From IMG/VR virus record IMGVR_UViG_3300044645_001738, positions 19,978 to 83,977 of that record: a stretch of DNA of 64,000 nucleotides. One strand, written 5' to 3'. The position numbers and the translations under genes were made by a program. Positions 4,856-19,019 of this stretch are shown piece after piece (the stretch's first letter is position 1; each line of letters begins with the position of its first letter). The notes beneath the pieces were generated by a model. It saw only the letters and a program-made list of their open reading frames with translations. It was not told the DNA's origin and ran no database searches. This DNA comes from a virus.

Positions 4856-5332
4856 ATGAAAAAGTACCCGTCAACAGAAAAATTGCGTCAAGTATTTGAT
4901 TATGTTGACGGGTGCCTTTATTGGAAAATAAAACCATGTATGGCTGTTTCTATTGGAGATAAAGCTGGAACAGATAAAGGAGCAAATGGTTACGCGCGTG
5001 TTAAGTATAATAAATCTATTTATTTAATTCACCGTATTGTTTGGGTTTGGCATGGAAATAGTCTTGATGAAAATCAAGAGATTGATCACATCAACCGCAA
5101 TAGAGCAGATAATCGAATTGAAAATTTACGTCAAGTAAGCAGAGATAAAAATTTAGAAAATCAAAAAGGCAATATGGTTTGTTATTGCCCTAGCGTTAAA
5201 AGCAAAAACAAATGGAAGGCCTATACAAAACAAACAAGCACAAACCGACAAGTTCATTTGGGTTATTATGAAACTAAAGAAGACGCTTTGCAAGCATTAA
5301 AAAACAATGAACGGAGATGCTGCTTTAAATAA
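4856..5332 (+). CDS. HNH homing endonuclease with AP2-type DNA-binding domain
   Basis: A 158-residue free-standing endonuclease. Residues 58-100 carry the HNH motif (HRIVWVWHG, EIDHINRNRADNRIENLR). Residues about 115-150 (KWKAYTKQTSTNRQVHLGYY) look like an AP2-type DNA-binding module, a usual partner of this nuclease type. Such genes cleave a specific site in related phages and spread by repair. The DNA is visibly richer in A and T than its neighbours, as expected of a recent mobile arrival. It ends overlapping the next gene by 26 bases. Confidence 0.85.
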   Translation: MKKYPSTEKLRQVFDYVDGCLYWKIKPCMAVSIGDKAGTDKGANGYARVKYNKSIYLIHRIVWVWHGNSLDENQEIDHINRNRADNRIENLRQVSRDKNLENQKGNMVCYCPSVKSKNKWKAYTKQTSTNRQVHLGYYETKEDALQALKNNERRCCFK

Positions 5333-6807: not shown

Positions 6808-8142
6808 ATGATTATCCGTTATATCAATGATTATGGTGATGGAACTTCGGGATATGCAGATTACGGTTCTGGAATTGTCGTAACCACTGCAAGTGGTCAG
6901 CCAATTGAAGTAACCAGTACGTCCAGTGGGGTGGTTAACATCCAGCCTGCAGGCGTTGCTTCTGATGCCTTTGGTCGATTGCGTTCTTCCACACCCTTAA
7001 CACTGTTTGATTCCAGCCATCGTTATAAAGATAATGGTCTGTGGACTACAACCAGTGGTGTCGGTGGCACTACAGCATTTAACGCTAATGCTGGACTTGT
7101 AGACCTCAACGTCACAACAACATCTGGCTCTGAAATCATCAGGGAAACAACAAAGGTGTTTGCGTATCAACCAGGCAAGTCCTTGTTGGTGATGTCAACC
7201 TTTGTGATGAACGCATTCAAGACTGGGTTGCGTCAACGGGTTGGCTACTACGGCGCCGACAATGGCATCTATATAGAAAAAGATGGGACCAGTGCGGCAA
7301 CATTTGTTGAGCGCAGTCTTGTAACTGGTTCTGTAACTGAAACCAGAGTTGCTCAATCGAATTGGAATATTGACAAGCTTGATGGTACAGGCGTATCTGG
7401 TATTACGCTTGACCTAACTAAAGCTCAAATCCTGTTCATGGATATTGAGTGGCTGGGTCTTGGTACTGTACGGGTAGGTTTTGTTATTGACGGTAAGTTA
7501 ATTCATTGTCATTCATTCCATCATGCCAACTTAATTACATCTACTTACATCACAACCGCATCGTTACCTTTACGTTATGAAATTAGAAATACTGCTGCTA
7601 CTGCAAGTAGCAGTACACTGAAACAAATTTGTTCAAGTGTTATTTCAGAAGGTGGCTATGAGTTACGTGGCCTCCAGCAAGCCATTGGCACTACAATTAC
7701 TGCACCTTATAGTCTGACTACGGCTGGCACATTTTATCCAGTGATTTCGCTGCGGTTAAAAACAACGGCGCTTGATGCAATTGTCATCTTGACCGCCATC
7801 TCAATTATGTCGGCAGCAGGTACTGCAAACTATGTGTGGCGCGTGGTAGCCAGTGCAACCACTACTGCTGGTACTTGGGTAAGTGCAGGTGCTGACTCTG
7901 CCGTGGAATACAACTTAACTGGTACTGCAACTACGGGCGGACGCGTTCTTGCTCAAGGATATTTTGCTGGCAGCAACCAATCCAGTACTACAATCGACAT
8001 CTTGAAAGAAGCATTGTTTAAATTTCAGTTAGAGCGTAATGGTTTAACTGGTACTCCTTATGAGTTGTCACTTGTTTTGGCTGCTAGTGCAAACACATCA
8101 ACTGTGCATGCTGCATTGGATTGGGAAGAAATCTCAAGATAA
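6808..8142 (+). CDS. Putative virion structural protein
   Basis: A 444-residue protein when started at ATG 6808; the frame is open from 6757. It is rich in Thr, Ser, Ala and Gly with beta-strand character and few Cys or charged clusters. The stretches SDAFGRLRSSTPLTLFDSSH and ETTKVFAYQPGKSLLVMSTF recall a structural protein seen repeatedly in uncultured marine and freshwater phages, often called a head or fibre protein. It lies far from the other structural genes, on the opposite strand. The exact role is unknown. Confidence 0.65.
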   Translation: MIIRYINDYGDGTSGYADYGSGIVVTTASGQPIEVTSTSSGVVNIQPAGVASDAFGRLRSSTPLTLFDSSHRYKDNGLWTTTSGVGGTTAFNANAGLVDLNVTTTSGSEIIRETTKVFAYQPGKSLLVMSTFVMNAFKTGLRQRVGYYGADNGIYIEKDGTSAATFVERSLVTGSVTETRVAQSNWNIDKLDGTGVSGITLDLTKAQILFMDIEWLGLGTVRVGFVIDGKLIHCHSFHHANLITSTYITTASLPLRYEIRNTAATASSSTLKQICSSVISEGGYELRGLQQAIGTTITAPYSLTTAGTFYPVISLRLKTTALDAIVILTAISIMSAAGTANYVWRVVASATTTAGTWVSAGADSAVEYNLTGTATTGGRVLAQGYFAGSNQSSTTIDILKEALFKFQLERNGLTGTPYELSLVLAASANTSTVHAALDWEEISR

Positions 8143-10743: not shown

Positions 10744-10881
10744 TTACAAATCAACCCGAGTATAAGAGATATCTTCGTTCTGTAAGCTTTGTTCAAATGC
10801 GTCGGCTTCAATGGTTTCAATGTCTTCCACTACGGGCCAGCCGTCAAGGTCGTAGTAGAAACGGGTGAGATTACAGGACAT
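10744..10881 (-). CDS. Tiny acidic protein
   Basis: A 45-residue acidic protein starting MSCNLTRFYYDLDGWPVVED. It overlaps the end of the hli gene by 11 bases and ends six bases before the methyltransferase start. No known family. The tight packing is the main support that it is real. Confidence 0.5.
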   Translation of the reverse strand: MSCNLTRFYYDLDGWPVVEDIETIEADAFEQSLQNEDISYTRVDL

Positions 10882-11119
10882 GGACAAGATTCCAAATGGA
10901 AGATTTGGTGGTTAACTCGGTGACTAAGATGATGGTTACTGCTAGCATGGCAAGCCTTCCGTTGACACGCTCTGCATACCAGGTGAAATCATCTGGGTGA
11001 GTGGGTGGCTTCCAGAAGACTAGGTCTGGGAGATACTCCTTGACAATTTCAATGATGATCCAGGAGGCGCAGCTGTACCATCCACGGATTGAGTACCAGA
11101 ACTTAGCGAGTCCTGTCAT
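10871..11119 (-). CDS. hli: High-light-inducible (Hli) protein
   Basis: An 82-residue member of the chlorophyll a/b-binding-like family. Residues 50-58 spell AERVNGRLAM, matching ExxNGRxAM; Glu50 with Asn53 and Arg55 form the chlorophyll-binding and helix-locking set, and the rest of the helix runs to TELTT. Hli proteins sit in the thylakoid membrane and protect photosystems; cyanophages carry them to keep photosynthesis going. The N-terminal 40 residues, with a hydrophobic patch (WYSCASWIIIEIVKEYL), are unusual, since most phage Hli proteins have a short hydrophilic start. It overlaps the upstream gene by four bases. Confidence 0.8.
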   Translation of the reverse strand: MTGLAKFWYSIRGWYSCASWIIIEIVKEYLPDLVFWKPPTHPDDFTWYAERVNGRLAMLAVTIILVTELTTKSSIWNLVHVL

Positions 11120-12226: not shown

Positions 12227-12412
12227 ATGGAAATCTACGTTTCCGTTGGTGAGTGGATGAATAGTCTTCAGAATCGCATGAATAGTGCGATGGATGGGGA
12301 CTGTTTTTATCTGCCCACCCCTATGCATCTTCATGCTTTTTTCTTGGTGAAGGACCAGGCATTTGCCAATAAAGACTTTAAAGTAGAACTCATGCCATCA
12401 GTTAACGAATGA
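12227..12412 (+). CDS. Small hypothetical protein
   Basis: A 61-residue protein with no recognised family, containing Met- and Phe-rich stretches (DGDCFYLPTPMHLHAFFLVK). It precedes the primase-helicase gene and its stop overlaps that start as ATGA. It may be co-translated with the primase-helicase. Confidence 0.55.
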   Translation: MEIYVSVGEWMNSLQNRMNSAMDGDCFYLPTPMHLHAFFLVKDQAFANKDFKVELMPSVNE

Positions 12413-15039
12413 CTAATACTTCTCAGCTCTCGCTCAGGCCCGGCGAAATTCGTTTTGATTACATCCCAGCGGATTGGCCTCTTACTCCGCTTGGTGCCAA
12501 CAAGGATCCGTATGTCGCTGGATGGCAGAACAAACCGTTTAGTGTCAAGGAAATTGAAGATGAATTGACAAGCGGTAAGTGTAAGGCTATTGGTCTGCTC
12601 GGTGGTCCTGTTTACAACCATCCGTACGGTTTCATCTGGATTGACATTGATGGCCCATCGGTGTACCAGCTGGTGGAGGAGTTGGCCGATGCACCTTTCA
12701 TTAAGGTGATGCCGCCCACACTGACAATCTTCAGTGGGAAGGAAGGTAGGGAGCGTAGGTTATACCGGGTTAGCCGTGAGAAACATAAGCACATCGTTCG
12801 GAATAAGTACACGTGGCACGCAGCAGTAGACAAAGAAAAGCTTGAGATTCTTTGGAAGCGGCACCAGGGTGTGTTAATGGGGTTACATCCGGAAACGGAT
12901 GGGTACTACACGGCTCCAGACCTTGGGTTTGAGTGGGCAAAGGCTGTGCCTGAAATGCCGGACTTCTTGTTGAATGCCATCATCAACAAGAATGTCAAGC
13001 AAGGTATTCCGGCAAAGGAAACAACGCGTGTTATCGGCCCAGGCTTTGCGATCAATAGTGTTGTGGACCTTGACCGGGATATGAAGCTTGCCGCAGAGGC
13101 AATGTGGGGCATGCCTCCAGAAGCGGCGGATGACTATGACATCTGGATTACGGTCGGTCAATCACTCCATAATCTCGATGAATCACTCCTTGATCAGTGG
13201 GAAGAATGGTCCAAGCAGTCGGACAAGTATAGGGAGGGGGAGTGTCACCGGCGGTGGCTGTCGTTTACTCGTGGCTCTGGTCGCAGCATTGGCTCACTGA
13301 TTCACGTTGCTCGTGAGCAGGGGTGGCAGCCGTCCCAGGAGTATAGGGGGCTGAGTGTTGATGATGCGACATTAGAGCATGCTTCAAAATTATTGGCTGA
13401 AATTGATCTGGAAGAATCTCAAATGACTCCCGTAACCGCTCCATGTGCTGCATCCGATGCCACTCAGACAAATCAATGGCAGTCGCAGGAGCTGGACACA
13501 AAAAACATGAAGTCAAAAGAAGAGAAGAAAACGTCAAAGAACCCGTCATCCAGCAAAATCGTAGATCATTTGCGCTCAACATATAACGGAGATCTGCGCT
13601 TTAGTCAAGCCCACGGTCAATTCTTTATTTATGCTAAAGAAAGTGATGGGCTTTGGTCGCCTCTCACGAAGATCGAAATGATGGGTGACATTCGGGAAAA
13701 GCTGCAAGTACTGCACCTTCCCGGTGGATTCACTTCTAATCTGATGAATGACATCTACCTGCAGCTCCAGGCGGTGTTGGTGTTTGATGATTGGTATGAC
13801 GGTTCCAACTACCTGTTGTTTACCAATGGGGTGCTGGATATCGAGAAGAAGGAGTTGCTTCCATTCAATCGGGGGATGCACCTGACCCAGCAAATGCCTT
13901 ATCGGTATGATCCAGCGGCTGGGTGTGAAGACATCATTAAGTGGCTGAAGCATGTGCAGCACGGTAGCTGGGAACGTGTTCAGGTGTTACGTGCATGGTT
14001 GCGTGCCACGCTACTGGGGCGCTATGAGATCCAGAAGTTTGTGGAGATTGTTGGCCCTGGTAAGTCCGGTAAGTCGACCTATGCAAACCTGGCTGTGGCA
14101 TTGGTTGGTAAGCAAAACACCTACTCAACAGACTTTGAGAATCTGGAGAAGAACAGGTTTGAAGCTGCAAGCTACATGGGCAAGAAGCTTCTGCTGTTCC
14201 AGGATGCTGATAGGTGGGGTGGATCGGTATCAAAGCTGAAGGCAATTACCGGTAATGATTGGATCCGTAGTGAACGCAAGTATCAAAGCGAAGGTCAAGA
14301 TCCGTTTCAGTATCATGGAGTTGTGATGATTACAGCTAATGAAGCTATTCAATCAACTGATTACACTTCTGGCCTTGCGCGTCGCCGCCTTACTATTCCG
14401 TTCGACCGTCCGTTTGAGGGCGGTCAGGCAGAACAAAAGGAACTGATTAAGTTCGATTCCAAGGGTGTCCCCCAGGGTGTGTTCGCTCCCTTGTTGCCAG
14501 GGTTGGTAAACTGGTTGTTGGATATGACTGAGGATGACATGCGTGCTTGTCTCATGGAAACCGGTAAGAAGATTGATTTCTTTCGTAAGTATGAGAAGCA
14601 GCAAAGCCTGCGTTCTAATCCACTGTTGGATTGGATGGATCACAAGTTGGTGTTCCAGCCGAATGTGATGACGCACGTTGGCTTCTGTCAGCAGAATCCA
14701 AATGGAACTGGCGGCTATTACAAGGACAATACGCGTTGGTTGTATGCCAGCTATGCGGAGTTCTGTCGCAACTGCAACGTGGGCATCATGTCACGCGGCA
14801 GGTTTGAGCCCTTGTTCTTGGACATTTGCAGGCACCAGCTCAAACTGAACGTCTACTCCAAGAAGGCGGCGTCTGGTATGCAGGTCTTTAACATTGCCAT
14901 CAAGGAGTCGAATATTGACAGGTACTTACAGCTGCCTTCGGTTGTGGAATTTGCAGCAAACCCTGACCGTTATAAGGATCAATACCCTGAGCTTTTTGTA
15001 CCTACTGGTGAGACAATAGAGAATGATGCAACAATGTAG
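12409..15039 (+). CDS. Primase-polymerase and SF3 helicase fusion
   Basis: An 876-residue replication protein. The N-terminal part has the bifunctional primase-polymerase signature (WIDIDG near residue 77, giving a D-x-D metal site, and a His/Arg set in GKEGRERRLYR). A PriCT-2-like region follows (WGMPPEAADDYDIWITVGQS and later GSGRSIGSLIHVAREQGW, about 225-305). The C-terminal half is a D5-like SF3 helicase with Walker A GPGKSGKST near 549, Walker B-like KLLLFQDAD, and MITANE sensor. It would prime and unwind DNA at the phage fork. The start overlaps the upstream gene as ATGA. Confidence 0.85.
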   Translation: MTNTSQLSLRPGEIRFDYIPADWPLTPLGANKDPYVAGWQNKPFSVKEIEDELTSGKCKAIGLLGGPVYNHPYGFIWIDIDGPSVYQLVEELADAPFIKVMPPTLTIFSGKEGRERRLYRVSREKHKHIVRNKYTWHAAVDKEKLEILWKRHQGVLMGLHPETDGYYTAPDLGFEWAKAVPEMPDFLLNAIINKNVKQGIPAKETTRVIGPGFAINSVVDLDRDMKLAAEAMWGMPPEAADDYDIWITVGQSLHNLDESLLDQWEEWSKQSDKYREGECHRRWLSFTRGSGRSIGSLIHVAREQGWQPSQEYRGLSVDDATLEHASKLLAEIDLEESQMTPVTAPCAASDATQTNQWQSQELDTKNMKSKEEKKTSKNPSSSKIVDHLRSTYNGDLRFSQAHGQFFIYAKESDGLWSPLTKIEMMGDIREKLQVLHLPGGFTSNLMNDIYLQLQAVLVFDDWYDGSNYLLFTNGVLDIEKKELLPFNRGMHLTQQMPYRYDPAAGCEDIIKWLKHVQHGSWERVQVLRAWLRATLLGRYEIQKFVEIVGPGKSGKSTYANLAVALVGKQNTYSTDFENLEKNRFEAASYMGKKLLLFQDADRWGGSVSKLKAITGNDWIRSERKYQSEGQDPFQYHGVVMITANEAIQSTDYTSGLARRRLTIPFDRPFEGGQAEQKELIKFDSKGVPQGVFAPLLPGLVNWLLDMTEDDMRACLMETGKKIDFFRKYEKQQSLRSNPLLDWMDHKLVFQPNVMTHVGFCQQNPNGTGGYYKDNTRWLYASYAEFCRNCNVGIMSRGRFEPLFLDICRHQLKLNVYSKKAASGMQVFNIAIKESNIDRYLQLPSVVEFAANPDRYKDQYPELFVPTGETIENDATM

Positions 15040-15392
15040 TGGGAAATGGCCGGCATCTGATACTGGATCTATACGATTGTGATCCAGAGATTTTGGATGA
15101 TTACCAGGAGCTTCAACGATTGCTTGAGGCTTCTTTGGTAATGGCCAAAGCAACTATCCTGCGCATTATTGGCGAGAAGTTTAAGCCGCAAGGTGTCACA
15201 CTATTGGCACTGCTGGCTGAATCCCACGCATCAATTCATTCGTGGCCCGAGATTGGGTATTGTGCAATCGATCTTTATACTTGTGGCGATACCACGCAGA
15301 CGCATCGGGCGGCAGAATTTCTCAAGAAGAAGTTGAAAGCTAAAACTGTAGAGCAAAAAGAGTTGGTACGGTCGACTACTCCGTCGAATTGA
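15039..15392 (+). CDS. speD: S-adenosylmethionine decarboxylase (SpeD)
   Basis: A 117-residue prokaryotic-type AdoMetDC, close to the family length of about 120-130. ESHASIHSWPE includes Glu61-Ser62, the self-cleavage pair that produces the pyruvoyl cofactor at Ser62; His67 and Cys82 (in TCG) are the partner catalytic residues. The enzyme makes decarboxylated SAM for spermidine synthesis, which stabilises DNA and membranes. It is a recognised auxiliary gene of cyanophages. The start is GTG at 15039, overlapping the previous stop by one base. Confidence 0.85.
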   Translation: MGNGRHLILDLYDCDPEILDDYQELQRLLEASLVMAKATILRIIGEKFKPQGVTLLALLAESHASIHSWPEIGYCAIDLYTCGDTTQTHRAAEFLKKKLKAKTVEQKELVRSTTPSN

Positions 15393-15421: not shown

Positions 15422-16684
15422 ATGGCTAAAAAAACTAAGATTCTTTGGGTTGCTGACTTTGCAGCAATGACCGGTTTCGGCCGTGTCAGTGGTGCGGTAC
15501 TGCCGCGACTGAAGGATGACTTTGAAATTGTGGTGCTCGCATGTAATTGGCATGGAGATCCAACGGATGAGCAGAAAGATTTCAAGATGTATCCTGCGTC
15601 CAACCGATTCCAGCAGGCGCCCTTTGGTGAGGATCGCATTCGGGAGATTGTTGAGAAAGAACAGCCGGATATTGTGTTCAGCTTGAATGATCCTTGGATC
15701 GTTAGTGAACAGTACAGGCGTATTCAAGATCTGCACCAGCAGAAGAAGTTTAAGTTCTGTGGCTACCTCACGATGGATAGCTACAACTGGATTGGTGGCA
15801 TCGATGCACACATCAATGAATGGGATGCGTTGATTGCATTTACGGAATTTGGTGCATACGAATTCTTTAAGGCGGGTATCACCAAGCCGGTCACTGTAAT
15901 TCCACATGGTTTGGATACGGATCTCTTTTATCCCATGGATAAGAAGGAGGCACGCAAGAAGCTGGGGCTGTCGGAGGACATCTTCATCTGTTTGAATGCC
16001 AACAGGAATCAGTTCCGCAAACGGATGGACATTACGATTGCAGCCTTTGCCAAGTTCGCAGTCGGTCGCCCGGATACGCAACTTTATATGCACTGCGGTA
16101 CCAAGGATCAAGGGTGGGATATCATGCCGCTCTTCGGGCGGGAGATGAGTAAGAACGGACTTGATCCAAACGGTCGCATCATCATGACCAATAACAACCA
16201 GGGGCCGCCGAACGTTTCGGTGGAGTTCCTGAATTGCATTTACAACGCGGCTGATATTGGGATCAATACCACCAAGGGGGGTGGCTGGGAGCTAGTCAAC
16301 TTTGAGAATGCTGCCTGCCGTGTGGCACAGGTGGTGCCGGATCACACCAGTACCAAAGAGATTTTTGAGGGCTATGCCCCACTGATTCGTTGCGACCACG
16401 TGGATGTGGACACCAACATGGCACGGGAGATGCCCTGCCCCTCCGACCAACACCTGGCGCAGATCCTTGCCAACCTCTACGACGATCGGGAGTACCTGAA
16501 CAGTGTGGCCGATGCCTGCTACAAGCGGGTGACGGATCCTCAATTTAGTTGGGACTCAGTTGCGTCTCAGTTTGGAGGGGTGTTCCAGGAGGTGATGGAG
16601 GGTGGTGAGCCGGAAGTGGAAGAGAAGCCAAAGAAGAAAAAGAAGGAGAAGAAGGAAAAACGCACGGTTGGGGCTGCGGCGTGA
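15422..16684 (+). CDS. Glycosyltransferase, GT4-like
   Basis: A 420-residue protein with a two-domain GT-B layout. VADFAAMTGFGRVSG begins the N-terminal Rossmann domain; VTVIPHGLDTDLFYP near residue 160 is the linker typical of GT4; the C-terminal domain keeps GGGWELVNFE near 286, the nucleotide-sugar binding Glu region. A low-complexity Lys-rich tail (about 398-413) and a short Ala-rich end follow. It might glycosylate DNA, virion proteins or host surface sugars; the acceptor cannot be told. A clear terminator lies after the stop. Confidence 0.8.
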   Translation: MAKKTKILWVADFAAMTGFGRVSGAVLPRLKDDFEIVVLACNWHGDPTDEQKDFKMYPASNRFQQAPFGEDRIREIVEKEQPDIVFSLNDPWIVSEQYRRIQDLHQQKKFKFCGYLTMDSYNWIGGIDAHINEWDALIAFTEFGAYEFFKAGITKPVTVIPHGLDTDLFYPMDKKEARKKLGLSEDIFICLNANRNQFRKRMDITIAAFAKFAVGRPDTQLYMHCGTKDQGWDIMPLFGREMSKNGLDPNGRIIMTNNNQGPPNVSVEFLNCIYNAADIGINTTKGGGWELVNFENAACRVAQVVPDHTSTKEIFEGYAPLIRCDHVDVDTNMAREMPCPSDQHLAQILANLYDDREYLNSVADACYKRVTDPQFSWDSVASQFGGVFQEVMEGGEPEVEEKPKKKKKEKKEKRTVGAAA

Positions 16685-16734: not shown

Positions 16735-16759
16735 ATCCCCTGGAAACAGGGGATTTTTT
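16735..16759 (+). terminator. Rho-independent terminator
   Basis: ATCCCCTG, loop GAAA, CAGGGGAT, then a run of T residues. The stem has eight base pairs with a GNRA tetraloop, a very stable form. It ends the plus-strand operon that runs from the nuclease to the glycosyltransferase. A very similar stem and loop occurs as the minus-strand terminator at 47614-47637. Confidence 0.8.
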
Positions 16760-16802
16760 GTAGCAAGGTGTACGCATTGAGGAGGTGGGGTACGGGTGAA
16801 AT

Positions 16803-17019
16803 CCGATAAAACCCCCTTCCTATCTTTACGTGACGCACATGACACTTTACTGAAAGTGTCATTATTTGAGTCAGGGTGAGACAGGAATGAGACGGTGGGA
16901 TTGGTGGGTTGTGCTTATTGTCTCAAGTACAATCTCACTTGAGAATCCTTGACAAATAATGACACTTTCGGCAAAGTGTCATTTGGATCTAATAAAGATA
17001 AACAGGGGGTTTTATCGGG
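16803..17019. repeat. Intergenic element with 60-bp imperfect terminal inverted repeats
   Basis: The 339-base gap at 16685-17023 holds no gene. Positions 16803-16862 match the reverse complement of 16960-17019 at 49 of 60 bases, with the outermost 15 bases (CCGATAAAACCCCCT) and the inner 10 bases identical. Each arm carries its own palindrome: ATGACACTTT-ACTG-AAAGTGTCAT at 16839-16862 and AATGACACTTT-CGGC-AAAGTGTCATT at 16958-16983. A third palindrome, TCTCAAGT with ACTTGAGA, is at 16921-16944. The element may be a duplicated promoter or operator, an origin-like site or a small inverted-repeat mobile element. No target-site duplication was seen. Confidence 0.7.
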
Positions 17020-17023
17020 TTCT

Positions 17024-17359
17024 ATGGCTAGACCAGGCGCACCACTGCCACCTCTCTGGTACTTGGAGTCCCAGCTTCGGTTGTCGACTCAGTACCCATC
17101 TGGCCTGGAATGGGCTTGTACCACGGGCTGGCACGCTGAAGGAGACATGGCCGGGAAATACGTCCCAGCCACCCGCTACTACGTGGTGAGGCTGGGGGGA
17201 GGGCAGTACCAGGCCCACAGGCTTGTCTACTTCCTACGCACCGGCCAGGACCCCCTGGAGGCCTCTGTCATTCACGTCGCATCTGACCGTGACAATCGCA
17301 AGGAACTGATCCTTCGTTCCAGATCCCCTACCACCAATCTCATATTGGACTCAAATTGA
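17024..17359 (+). CDS. Degenerate HNH-type protein
   Basis: A 111-residue protein started at ATG 17024, with AGGGGGT in the right arm of the inverted-repeat element as its likely ribosome binding site. YQAHRLVYFLRTGQ and a following SDRDNRKELILR mimic the HR...D...NR layout of HNH homing nucleases, but the central Asp-His is lost (VIHVASD). It may be an inactive HNH relative or a DNA-binding protein. The next gene, an HNH-like protein, begins one base after its stop. Confidence 0.5.
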   Translation: MARPGAPLPPLWYLESQLRLSTQYPSGLEWACTTGWHAEGDMAGKYVPATRYYVVRLGGGQYQAHRLVYFLRTGQDPLEASVIHVASDRDNRKELILRSRSPTTNLILDSN

Positions 17360-17360
17360 C

Positions 17361-18032
17361 ATGGCAAATTTGATTGCTCAGGTTTCCGAACTCAACGCTC
17401 GGCTCAACATTCGCTATTTGCGAAATGCAAATCAATGTGACGACAAGACCCTCGATGAGTACGGCTACTACCGGGGCTACGTGTGTCCGCACAACCACGA
17501 CATACGTGACCAGGAAAACCATTGGTGTTACTACTGTGTCCAGAAAATCTGGAAGAACGTCTGTGGTTTTGACATCAACTATCTGGATCCCAACTACAAA
17601 CACAAATACGCCGCGATCTGGAACCGAATCAATGTCACAACCATGGATGAGTGCTGGCACATACGTGGCAATTCCAAACGTGCGTGCCTTCCTTCTTACC
17701 GTTCTCACTACGCCAAGCAATCATCTGAATACGTCTCGCTCCATAAAGCGGTCTACCAGTGCGCGTGGGGAGATGTTGGTAAGTTTTTTGTGACTCGCGT
17801 GTGTGGCAATCCGGAATGTTTTAATCCTGTACACATGCTTTCCAGCTGGAACAGGGACTATCCCCCTGGCCGCATTCACCCACTCGTCTTGGAATTTGAG
17901 CCAAGTAAATTGATGTGCTATGCCAGGGCGCGGAAGAAAGTACAGGCTGACTCTCTGGCTGCCACGCAGTACAAACAAACGATTACCAATCCACGGGAAG
18001 CAGCACCACCACCTGAATACGATGAGGGTTGA
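17361..18032 (+). CDS. HNH-like zinc-binding endonuclease
   Basis: A 223-residue protein with several Cys pairs. CPHNHDIR...HWCYYC forms a zinc knuckle near residue 40-60, and CGNPECFNPVHM near 153 matches the zinc-binding loop and final His of phage HNH homing endonucleases. ECWHI supplies another His/Cys pair. The protein likely cuts or binds DNA. It lies directly behind a related degenerate gene, and both follow the inverted-repeat element. Confidence 0.6.
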   Translation: MANLIAQVSELNARLNIRYLRNANQCDDKTLDEYGYYRGYVCPHNHDIRDQENHWCYYCVQKIWKNVCGFDINYLDPNYKHKYAAIWNRINVTTMDECWHIRGNSKRACLPSYRSHYAKQSSEYVSLHKAVYQCAWGDVGKFFVTRVCGNPECFNPVHMLSSWNRDYPPGRIHPLVLEFEPSKLMCYARARKKVQADSLAATQYKQTITNPREAAPPPEYDEG

Positions 18033-18074: not shown

Positions 18075-19019
18075 ATGTCGCGCAACCCGGCTATTGCCCA
18101 AGCCAATCGCAGTAAATCAAATCCATTGGTACTTGGTACCTTTAGTACAACTTCACTGCGCTATCTAAAGGGTAAGCTGGGCCCGCAAAATAAAGTCATT
18201 GGCTACAAGGATACCAACCAAACGTCAAACGGTGGCTTCGGCGGTGGCACCTACAACCATTGGTTTCAAATTAACCTTGTAATCCCTGGTTGGATTGTTG
18301 TTACCAAAGGGCCACCGCGTCCAAGCTACATTCAAATTTCTGCGTATGACTTGGATTCAATTCCTATCCAGGGACGTGGAGTTTTTGATGAAGACTCTGT
18401 GTCAATCATCAGTGACAACGAAATTTCACATCCGTACCTTGGTACGGTTATGGGCGCACAATCGAATGTATACAACTTCTTCTCAAGGTTTCGCGTCGAC
18501 CGTGGCGACGATCGCTACTACGCGCTGGAAGCGGGTGCATACTTGATTTGTGTTTCGACTACTCGCAATGAACCGCTTGATTACGAGCTTGGTCTTGTTG
18601 TTGAGTTTCCTCCAACCGAAATGTTTATCGCCCTGGAGGATGAGGGTGATATTGCTTACCTGCTCCAGGAGACCTCAATTGATTTCAGCCGTACAATCAA
18701 TGTAATTTCTCCTGTTTCTGTTAACACTGTCATTTCTAGCAGCGTAGAACAACCGAATGGATTCACCGAACTGCTTTGCGCTATTAACTCAGGCATTACC
18801 GTTACCGTGCTCGATGGTTCCACTTGGTTCATTGGTGACCAAATTCCATCTGAACAAGGTGATCAATATTGGGTAAACGTTGACACTGCAGATGATCAAG
18901 AATATTTTCTTGCCATTCACGATCACTCTCTGTCAGAATGGCAGCAAGCATGGGAGTCTGAGCACCAGGACACGGACAAGTTCCCTGATATCTTTATCCC
19001 TCTCACCAACAGACCATGA
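18075..19019 (+). CDS. Putative virion protein, cyanophage type
   Basis: A 314-residue protein with beta-rich sequence and many aromatic and Asn residues (GGFGGGTYNHWFQINLVIPG). AAGGAAAAGGA upstream is the ribosome binding site. The overall pattern suggests a structural or accessory virion protein seen in uncultured cyanophages, from memory only. It is placed in the early plus-strand region, so a non-structural role cannot be excluded. Confidence 0.55.
   Translation: MSRNPAIAQANRSKSNPLVLGTFSTTSLRYLKGKLGPQNKVIGYKDTNQTSNGGFGGGTYNHWFQINLVIPGWIVVTKGPPRPSYIQISAYDLDSIPIQGRGVFDEDSVSIISDNEISHPYLGTVMGAQSNVYNFFSRFRVDRGDDRYYALEAGAYLICVSTTRNEPLDYELGLVVEFPPTEMFIALEDEGDIAYLLQETSIDFSRTINVISPVSVNTVISSSVEQPNGFTELLCAINSGITVTVLDGSTWFIGDQIPSEQGDQYWVNVDTADDQEYFLAIHDHSLSEWQQAWESEHQDTDKFPDIFIPLTNRP

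Follow-up and report, generated by a model that had tools for sequence, protein, structure and literature searches.

A conserved inverted repeat in front of the HNH operon of S-EIV1-like cyanophages and its possible role as an operator/promoter platform

The MH1 domain of Smad proteins has been linked to I-PpoI, and the replication origins of P4-type phages lie beside a primase-helicase gene and comprise direct iterons together with separate crr repeats. Among the described systems closest to the locus analyzed here, I-TevI binds an operator at its own late promoter and thereby keeps that promoter repressed (PMC2988022). CapR, the capsid repressor of a phage satellite, evolved from homing-endonuclease DNA-binding domains, and the same study mentions this route for plant AP2, a DNA-binding domain derived from a homing nuclease (PMC10448857). 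Moreover, hairpins that hide the ribosome-binding site are a known design of phage homing endonucleases of the T4 I-TevI/mobE type (PMC2988022, PMC3014915), and inverted repeats are known to undergo loop inversion and arm homogenization when the polymerase switches template from one to the other (PMC8604942).

Here, we describe an inverted repeat in front of two HNH-family genes in a stretch of 64,000 nucleotides (the window) drawn from an 83,977-bp IMG/VR virus record. Its large terminase shares 83% identity with the enzyme of Synechococcus phage S-EIV1 (KJ410740), the sole cultured phage identified as a close relative, and the window is that of an S-EIV1-like freshwater cyanophage. A nucleotide search against cultured phages gave no match, and protein searches returned S-EIV1 alone as a close relative; phages of this type are detected in many environmental samples. 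The literature accessible to us holds no description of gene switching or of the replication start site in S-EIV1-like phages. Likewise, no published description of the repeat was found in the literature searched, although the original S-EIV1 paper may mention it. With a conserved site and the proteins presumed to bind it found in most members, both processes would gain a direct entry point.

Architecture of the repeat and its surroundings

The inverted repeat in the window is real. A preliminary description had reported two 60-bp arms that match at 49 of 60 bases over a 217-bp span (16803-17019), with identical outer 15 bases and nested palindromes. On the axis that pairs 16803 with 17018, both the count of 49/60 and the exact identity of the outer 15 bases are reproduced. 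The left end of the span holds, the right end is set one base too far at 17019, and the repeat in its full extent exceeds the 60 bp given, as the arms measure 69 nt, pair at 57/69 positions (83%), and enclose a spacer of 84 nt (Table 1). The nested palindromes are equally present: a 10-bp dyad with a 4-nt loop, ATGACACTTT-N4-AAAGTGTCAT, is perfect in each arm and has no other copy in the window, with 0 expected by chance. Within the window, this is the sole inverted repeat of at least 30 nt, and its gapped inverted-repeat score is 123, whereas no window that does not overlap it exceeds 41. As single-stranded DNA, the region folds with a z-score of -8.9, and 0/200 shuffles fold equally well. 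The repeat occurs once in the 84-kb record, and no tRNA or known RNA family lies at the site.

Table 1. Features of the repeat locus, with positions in the window.
Feature	Position	Strand	Remark
Primase-helicase (Prim-Pol, PriCT_2, D5_N, DUF5906)	12409..15039	+	divergence tracks the inverted repeat
S-adenosylmethionine (AdoMet) decarboxylase gene	15039-15392	+	between primase and glycosyltransferase; conserved in most relatives
Glycosyltransferase	15422..16684	+	between primase and repeat; divergence does not track the repeat
Intrinsic-terminator-like hairpin	16735..16760	+	after the glycosyltransferase gene; visible in the sequence, folds; not listed by a simple terminator scan
Left arm of inverted repeat	16800..16868	.	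57/69 complementary to right arm
Outer tip, left, CCGATAAAACCCCCT	16803..16817	.	one of three alleles in close relatives; right tip always matches
Inner dyad, left, ATGACACTTT-ACTG-AAAGTGTCAT	16839..16862	.	loop inverted (CAGT) in close relatives
Right arm of inverted repeat	16953..17021	.	stops 2 bases short of the HNH1 start codon
Inner dyad, right, ATGACACTTT-CGGC-AAAGTGTCAT	16959..16982	.	
AT-rich TATA-like block TAATAAAGATAAAC	16990..17003	+	between right dyad and outer tip; unique in the genome
Outer tip, right, AGGGGGTTTTATCGG	17004..17018	.	
HNH1, degenerate I-HmuI-like HNH protein	17024..17359	+	metal Asp lost
HNH2, zinc-finger/His-Cys-box protein	17361..18032	+	single-copy core protein; Arg replaces the catalytic His
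G314	18075..19019	+	conserved downstream gene

The repeat follows the genes for primase-helicase, AdoMet decarboxylase, and glycosyltransferase and precedes HNH1, HNH2, and G314. Its earlier placement after a terminator and before two HNH-type genes is borne out by the hairpin behind the glycosyltransferase gene and by the match of both downstream genes to HNH families. An intrinsic terminator at the repeat itself was considered and rejected, as no T-run follows the right arm, the terminator scan lists none at the repeat, and the terminator-like hairpin is a separate structure. The repeats are therefore not the ordinary terminators that had been considered as a refuting outcome. Two further genes deserve mention in their own right. 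The AdoMet decarboxylase is an unusual metabolic gene for a replication module, and a small protein encoded at 10871-11119 on the minus strand appears, judged by reading its sequence, to resemble a high-light-inducible protein.

Conservation and evolution of the repeat among relatives

Relatives were collected as 80 loci from a glycosyltransferase search and 80 loci from a search with an HNH2 alignment, the two sets overlapping in part. Removal of duplicates left 94 distinct regions upstream of the HNH operon, representing 32 clusters by sequence, and the same gapped inverted-repeat aligner was applied to all of them. A repeat with a score above 45 stands immediately before the HNH1-HNH2 operon in 67/94 loci, two shuffles of each region gave at most 39, and a strong repeat is found in 28/32 clusters. 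None of 315 control upstream regions from the same loci has a repeat (primase 0/66, glycosyltransferase 0/84, AdoMet decarboxylase 0/72, G314 0/93). These controls were restricted to complete upstream regions, a requirement under which twelve high values from genes cut by a contig start disappeared. Two more genomes, reached via the terminase and hence without bias toward HNH2, also carry the repeat. In three loci (L103, L115, L121), the HNH genes precede the glycosyltransferase gene; here, it is the HNH genes that the repeat precedes, and there is none behind the glycosyltransferase. As the repeat stays with the HNH genes in the swapped gene order, it is a feature of the HNH operon.

Several lineages retain the repeat in the absence of HNH1. 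In S-EIV1 itself (L155, record 7700-7990), HNH1 is lost, and a remnant of it may persist in the short frame ATGCCAAGGCTTTTGCTATAA; the arm motif, AATCTTACATATCCACTT, is present in one additional direct copy immediately ahead of HNH2.

The repeat is a conserved part of the S-EIV1-like phage group and not a mobile insertion. The preliminary description had suggested a mobile inverted-repeat element that carries the HNH genes or is moved by them, for which we considered transposon or MITE ends and a homing cassette, and the terminal-looking repeats with their exact outer 15 bp and the adjoining HNH genes do recall such an element. Nevertheless, the repeat has a single copy per genome, and HNH2 is found in 17/17 genomes in the same neighborhood. 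The HNH genes lie outside the arms, and the 84 nt between the arms contain neither cargo nor a transposase. Catalytic residues are lost, the outer tips differ between lineages, and no target-site duplication is visible, since the flanks of the tips, GTGAAAT on the left and GGTTCTA on the right, form no direct repeat. Exact copies of the outer 15-mer were found in 44 stretches of viral contigs, five of which contain two copies 201 bp apart, all from the same close relatives, and no empty site was found. Spacer and arms alike are thus retained in relatives, and nothing there points to mobility. A mobile element is contradicted by the constant location, the single copy, the placement of the genes beyond the arms, and the lack of an empty site, and we consider it extremely unlikely.

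Between clusters, little arm sequence is shared, and the symmetry is kept. Nine distinct close relatives display the three outer-tip alleles, always with the same allele in both arms. Among these relatives, joint tip changes on both sides occur in six pairs, as compared to 0/500 shuffles and 0-1 in slid controls. Furthermore, the loop of the left dyad reads ACTG in some close relatives and the reverse complement CAGT in others. Covariation of the arms does not by itself prove function, because template switching can homogenize arms without selection, and part of the concerted change may be mutational. In its extreme form, this explanation takes the repeat for a neutral quasi-palindrome whose symmetry arises solely from polymerase template switching, of which the loop inversion and the joint tip changes would be products (PMC8604942). 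The fixed place before one operon in 28 clusters, half-sites common to distant lineages, and the absence from all controls make this highly improbable; fixed position and shared half-sites require selection.

Two or more copies of these half-sites, TKACACT/AGTGTMA, are present in 13/32 clusters as compared to 0.5% of 3,196 background windows, and the dyads carry repeated half-sites, often in the form TKACACTTT. Other lineages contain other repeated motifs; in L061, the copy number inside the site reaches seven, and the rest of the locus has no copy. As a separate observation, loci of different lineages (e.g., L060, L063, L068, L112) contain recurring short palindromes, CTCATGAGAC among them, in the spacer and close to the repeat. 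GTCTCA/TGAGAC palindromes are present in many spacers and are not among the over-represented 6-mers of either genome.

The comparison of arms also bears on an RNA-level function, in which read-through RNA would pair the arms and hide the ribosome-binding site of the HNH leader, and transcripts starting inside the right arm would escape. In the window, the right arm indeed ends beside the start codon, and read-through RNA folds into a long stem. However, arm mismatches show no lean toward G-U on the coding strand (81 G-T versus 117 C-A), and the arm ends at most 10 nt from the start codon in 24/67 loci, with a distance above 45 nt in 28/67. In addition, a terminator-like hairpin stands ahead of the repeat. 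Given the missing G-U lean and the variable arm-to-start distance, a T4-type hairpin at the ribosome-binding site is unlikely as a general function, and we rate it as quite improbable for the repeat as a whole; in some members, such a hairpin may add to function.

HNH1, HNH2, and possible functions of the repeat

HNH2 is present once per genome in 17/17 near-complete genomes and HNH1 in 13/17. A second HNH2 match in one near-complete genome covers 19 residues and is merely the zinc box of another protein. HNH2 holds a C-x4-C-x-N-P-x-H zinc box, and its zinc-binding Cys and His residues are invariant. When the HNH2 profile is aligned to I-PpoI, the invariant cysteines and histidine coincide, and an arginine occupies residue 98, which is the residue exchanged in the H98Q structure. 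This arginine is found in 74/77 HNH2 sequences. The match to I-PpoI is weak (sequence E-value 1.2, structure E-value 3.4) and depends on the motif that the two proteins have in common. The predicted fold of HNH1 (pLDDT 87) has I-HmuI as its best structural match (probability 0.89, E 0.18). The aspartate before the HNH histidine is missing in 65/65 HNH1 sequences, and the residue at the position of I-HmuI Asn87 (N87) is not an asparagine. Assuming the residue roles to be those of a catalytic His98 in I-PpoI and of the metal Asp74 and Asn87 in I-HmuI, both HNH1 and HNH2 look nuclease-dead from their sequences. An undegraded member of the family is exemplified by an HNH1 paralogue at 4856-5332 (+) in the window, whose D-H...N motif is intact.

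HNH2 is under purifying selection, with dN 0.07 and dS 1.56 between the window and L051 (dN/dS about 0.05). One phage (L323) fuses HNH1 (from 1135) and HNH2 (to 2148) in one open frame, and this fusion is preceded by a strong inverted repeat (score 104) in which a GGCGAATGA-like motif is repeated several times. The simplest inference is that HNH1 and HNH2 are two partner proteins kept for DNA binding rather than for cutting. Active homing endonuclease genes were rejected on account of the catalytic residues lost in HNH2 (74/77) and HNH1 (65/65) and of a distribution (HNH2 in 17/17 genomes, HNH1 in 13/17) that is not the sporadic one, with empty alleles, of homing genes.

The best explanation, which we hold to be evenly poised between right and wrong, is that the repeat serves as an operator/promoter platform of the HNH1-HNH2 operon that is bound by the domesticated HNH proteins. 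HNH1 and HNH2 would be former homing nucleases that lost cutting and kept DNA binding. HNH2, in many phages together with HNH1, would bind the half-sites of both arms, possibly bridging them, and the bound proteins would control transcription starting at the AT-rich block in the right arm. This block, TAATAAAGATAAAC (16990-17003), is a candidate -10 region or unwinding element. The outcome would be autoregulation similar to that of I-TevI, exerted by nuclease-dead proteins turned core phage genes. This reading draws on where the site lies, on its symmetry and half-sites, on its linkage to the operon, on the lost nuclease residues, and on co-divergence, from which we infer both binding and promoter activity. 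HNH1 cannot be the sole binder, because several lineages keep the repeat without it.

Several observations speak against an operator. No sigma-70 promoter was called in the arms, with no excess over shuffles, beyond the left arm lies no gene that it might obviously control, and the structural matches of HNH2 do not reach significance by E-value. A pair of promoters, suggested at first as facing, may still be present: the right arm occupies the expected place of the HNH-operon promoter, but the arms point outward and are divergent.

Co-divergence was analyzed in 31 genomes with distinct primases by comparing pairwise similarity of the repeat region with protein identities. Repeat similarity correlates with HNH2 (0.48) and primase (0.48), to a lesser degree with HNH1 (0.35) and G314 (0.23), and hardly with the glycosyltransferase (0.11). 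In partial Mantel tests controlled for all other genes, HNH2 (0.29, p=0.0005) and primase (0.21, p=0.007) persist, and the other genes drop out. Correlations of primase sub-domains carried too much noise to point to any one DNA-binding part. These links are correlational; the partial correlation of 0.21 with the primase is not predicted by a pure HNH2 operator; the repeat-primase correlation may partly reflect phage phylogeny.

This tracking of the primase (partial Mantel 0.21-0.30), and not of the intervening glycosyltransferase, favors a phage replication origin, which the preliminary description had also suggested and in which dyads and lineage-specific iterons would be bound by HNH2 and/or the primase-helicase and the AT-rich block would unwind. 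The repeat lies in the replication module near the primase-helicase gene, and the many motif copies in several lineages, including those of L061, would fit such iterons. In line with an origin, GC skew at fourfold sites falls by 0.22 across the repeat (66/84 loci). In three genomes, the glycosyltransferase gene lies behind the repeat and tends toward the downstream skew value, in a sample too small for significance. On the other hand, a switch between transcription units could also produce the skew shift, and the cumulative skew curves of G000 and S-EIV1 reach no clear extremum where the repeat lies. The place right before the HNH start codon and the operon linkage fit a promoter at least equally well. 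We regard an origin, the main rival explanation, as possible but doubtful, and the operator/promoter and origin readings are not exclusive. Extending the latter, repeat, nuclease-dead HNH2 (with HNH1), and primase-helicase may constitute one replication-initiation module, in which the HNH proteins act as an origin-binding initiator that loads the primase-helicase, and the specificities of origin and initiator turn over together between phage lineages; such a module is conceivable on the present sequence evidence and rather unlikely.

Comparison with known systems

If domestication of HNH1 and HNH2 holds true, S-EIV1-like phages would provide a clear case of homing-type nucleases that lost cutting and became fixed as core regulators or initiators of a phage lineage. 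At the level of single proteins, HNH2 shares the C-x4-C-x-N-P-x-H zinc box with I-PpoI and differs from it by the exchange of His98 for arginine, whereas HNH1 shares the HNH fold with I-HmuI and lacks Asp74 and Asn87. Smad MH1 domains are among the weak structural matches of HNH2. The route proposed here for HNH1 and HNH2, namely a dead nuclease kept as a DNA-binding protein, is that of Smad MH1 and plant AP2, which are eukaryotic factors. P4-type origins resemble the locus in having a repeat-containing site near a primase-helicase gene; here, in contrast, the repeat is symmetric and stands before the HNH operon.

The operator/promoter platform proposed above is most readily compared with I-TevI of phage T4 and with CapR. 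As for I-TevI (PMC2988022), a protein of a homing-endonuclease family is expected at a site that overlaps its own promoter, and a palindrome lies upstream of a nuclease gene. However, the I-TevI operator is short and the protein itself an active GIY-YIG intron nuclease, whereas the proteins here are of the HNH/His-Cys box type and have lost their catalytic residues, HNH2 belongs to the core genes, and the site extends over 220 bp as a two-armed repeat. With CapR, the locus would share a nuclease-family protein turned transcription regulator. CapR is a relative of T5orf172 homing endonuclease genes, is encoded by a satellite, and represses the operon of another genome, whereas HNH1 and HNH2 belong to the phage core and are encoded beside their presumed site. 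The HNH system may work like I-TevI or CapR while being a member of neither group.
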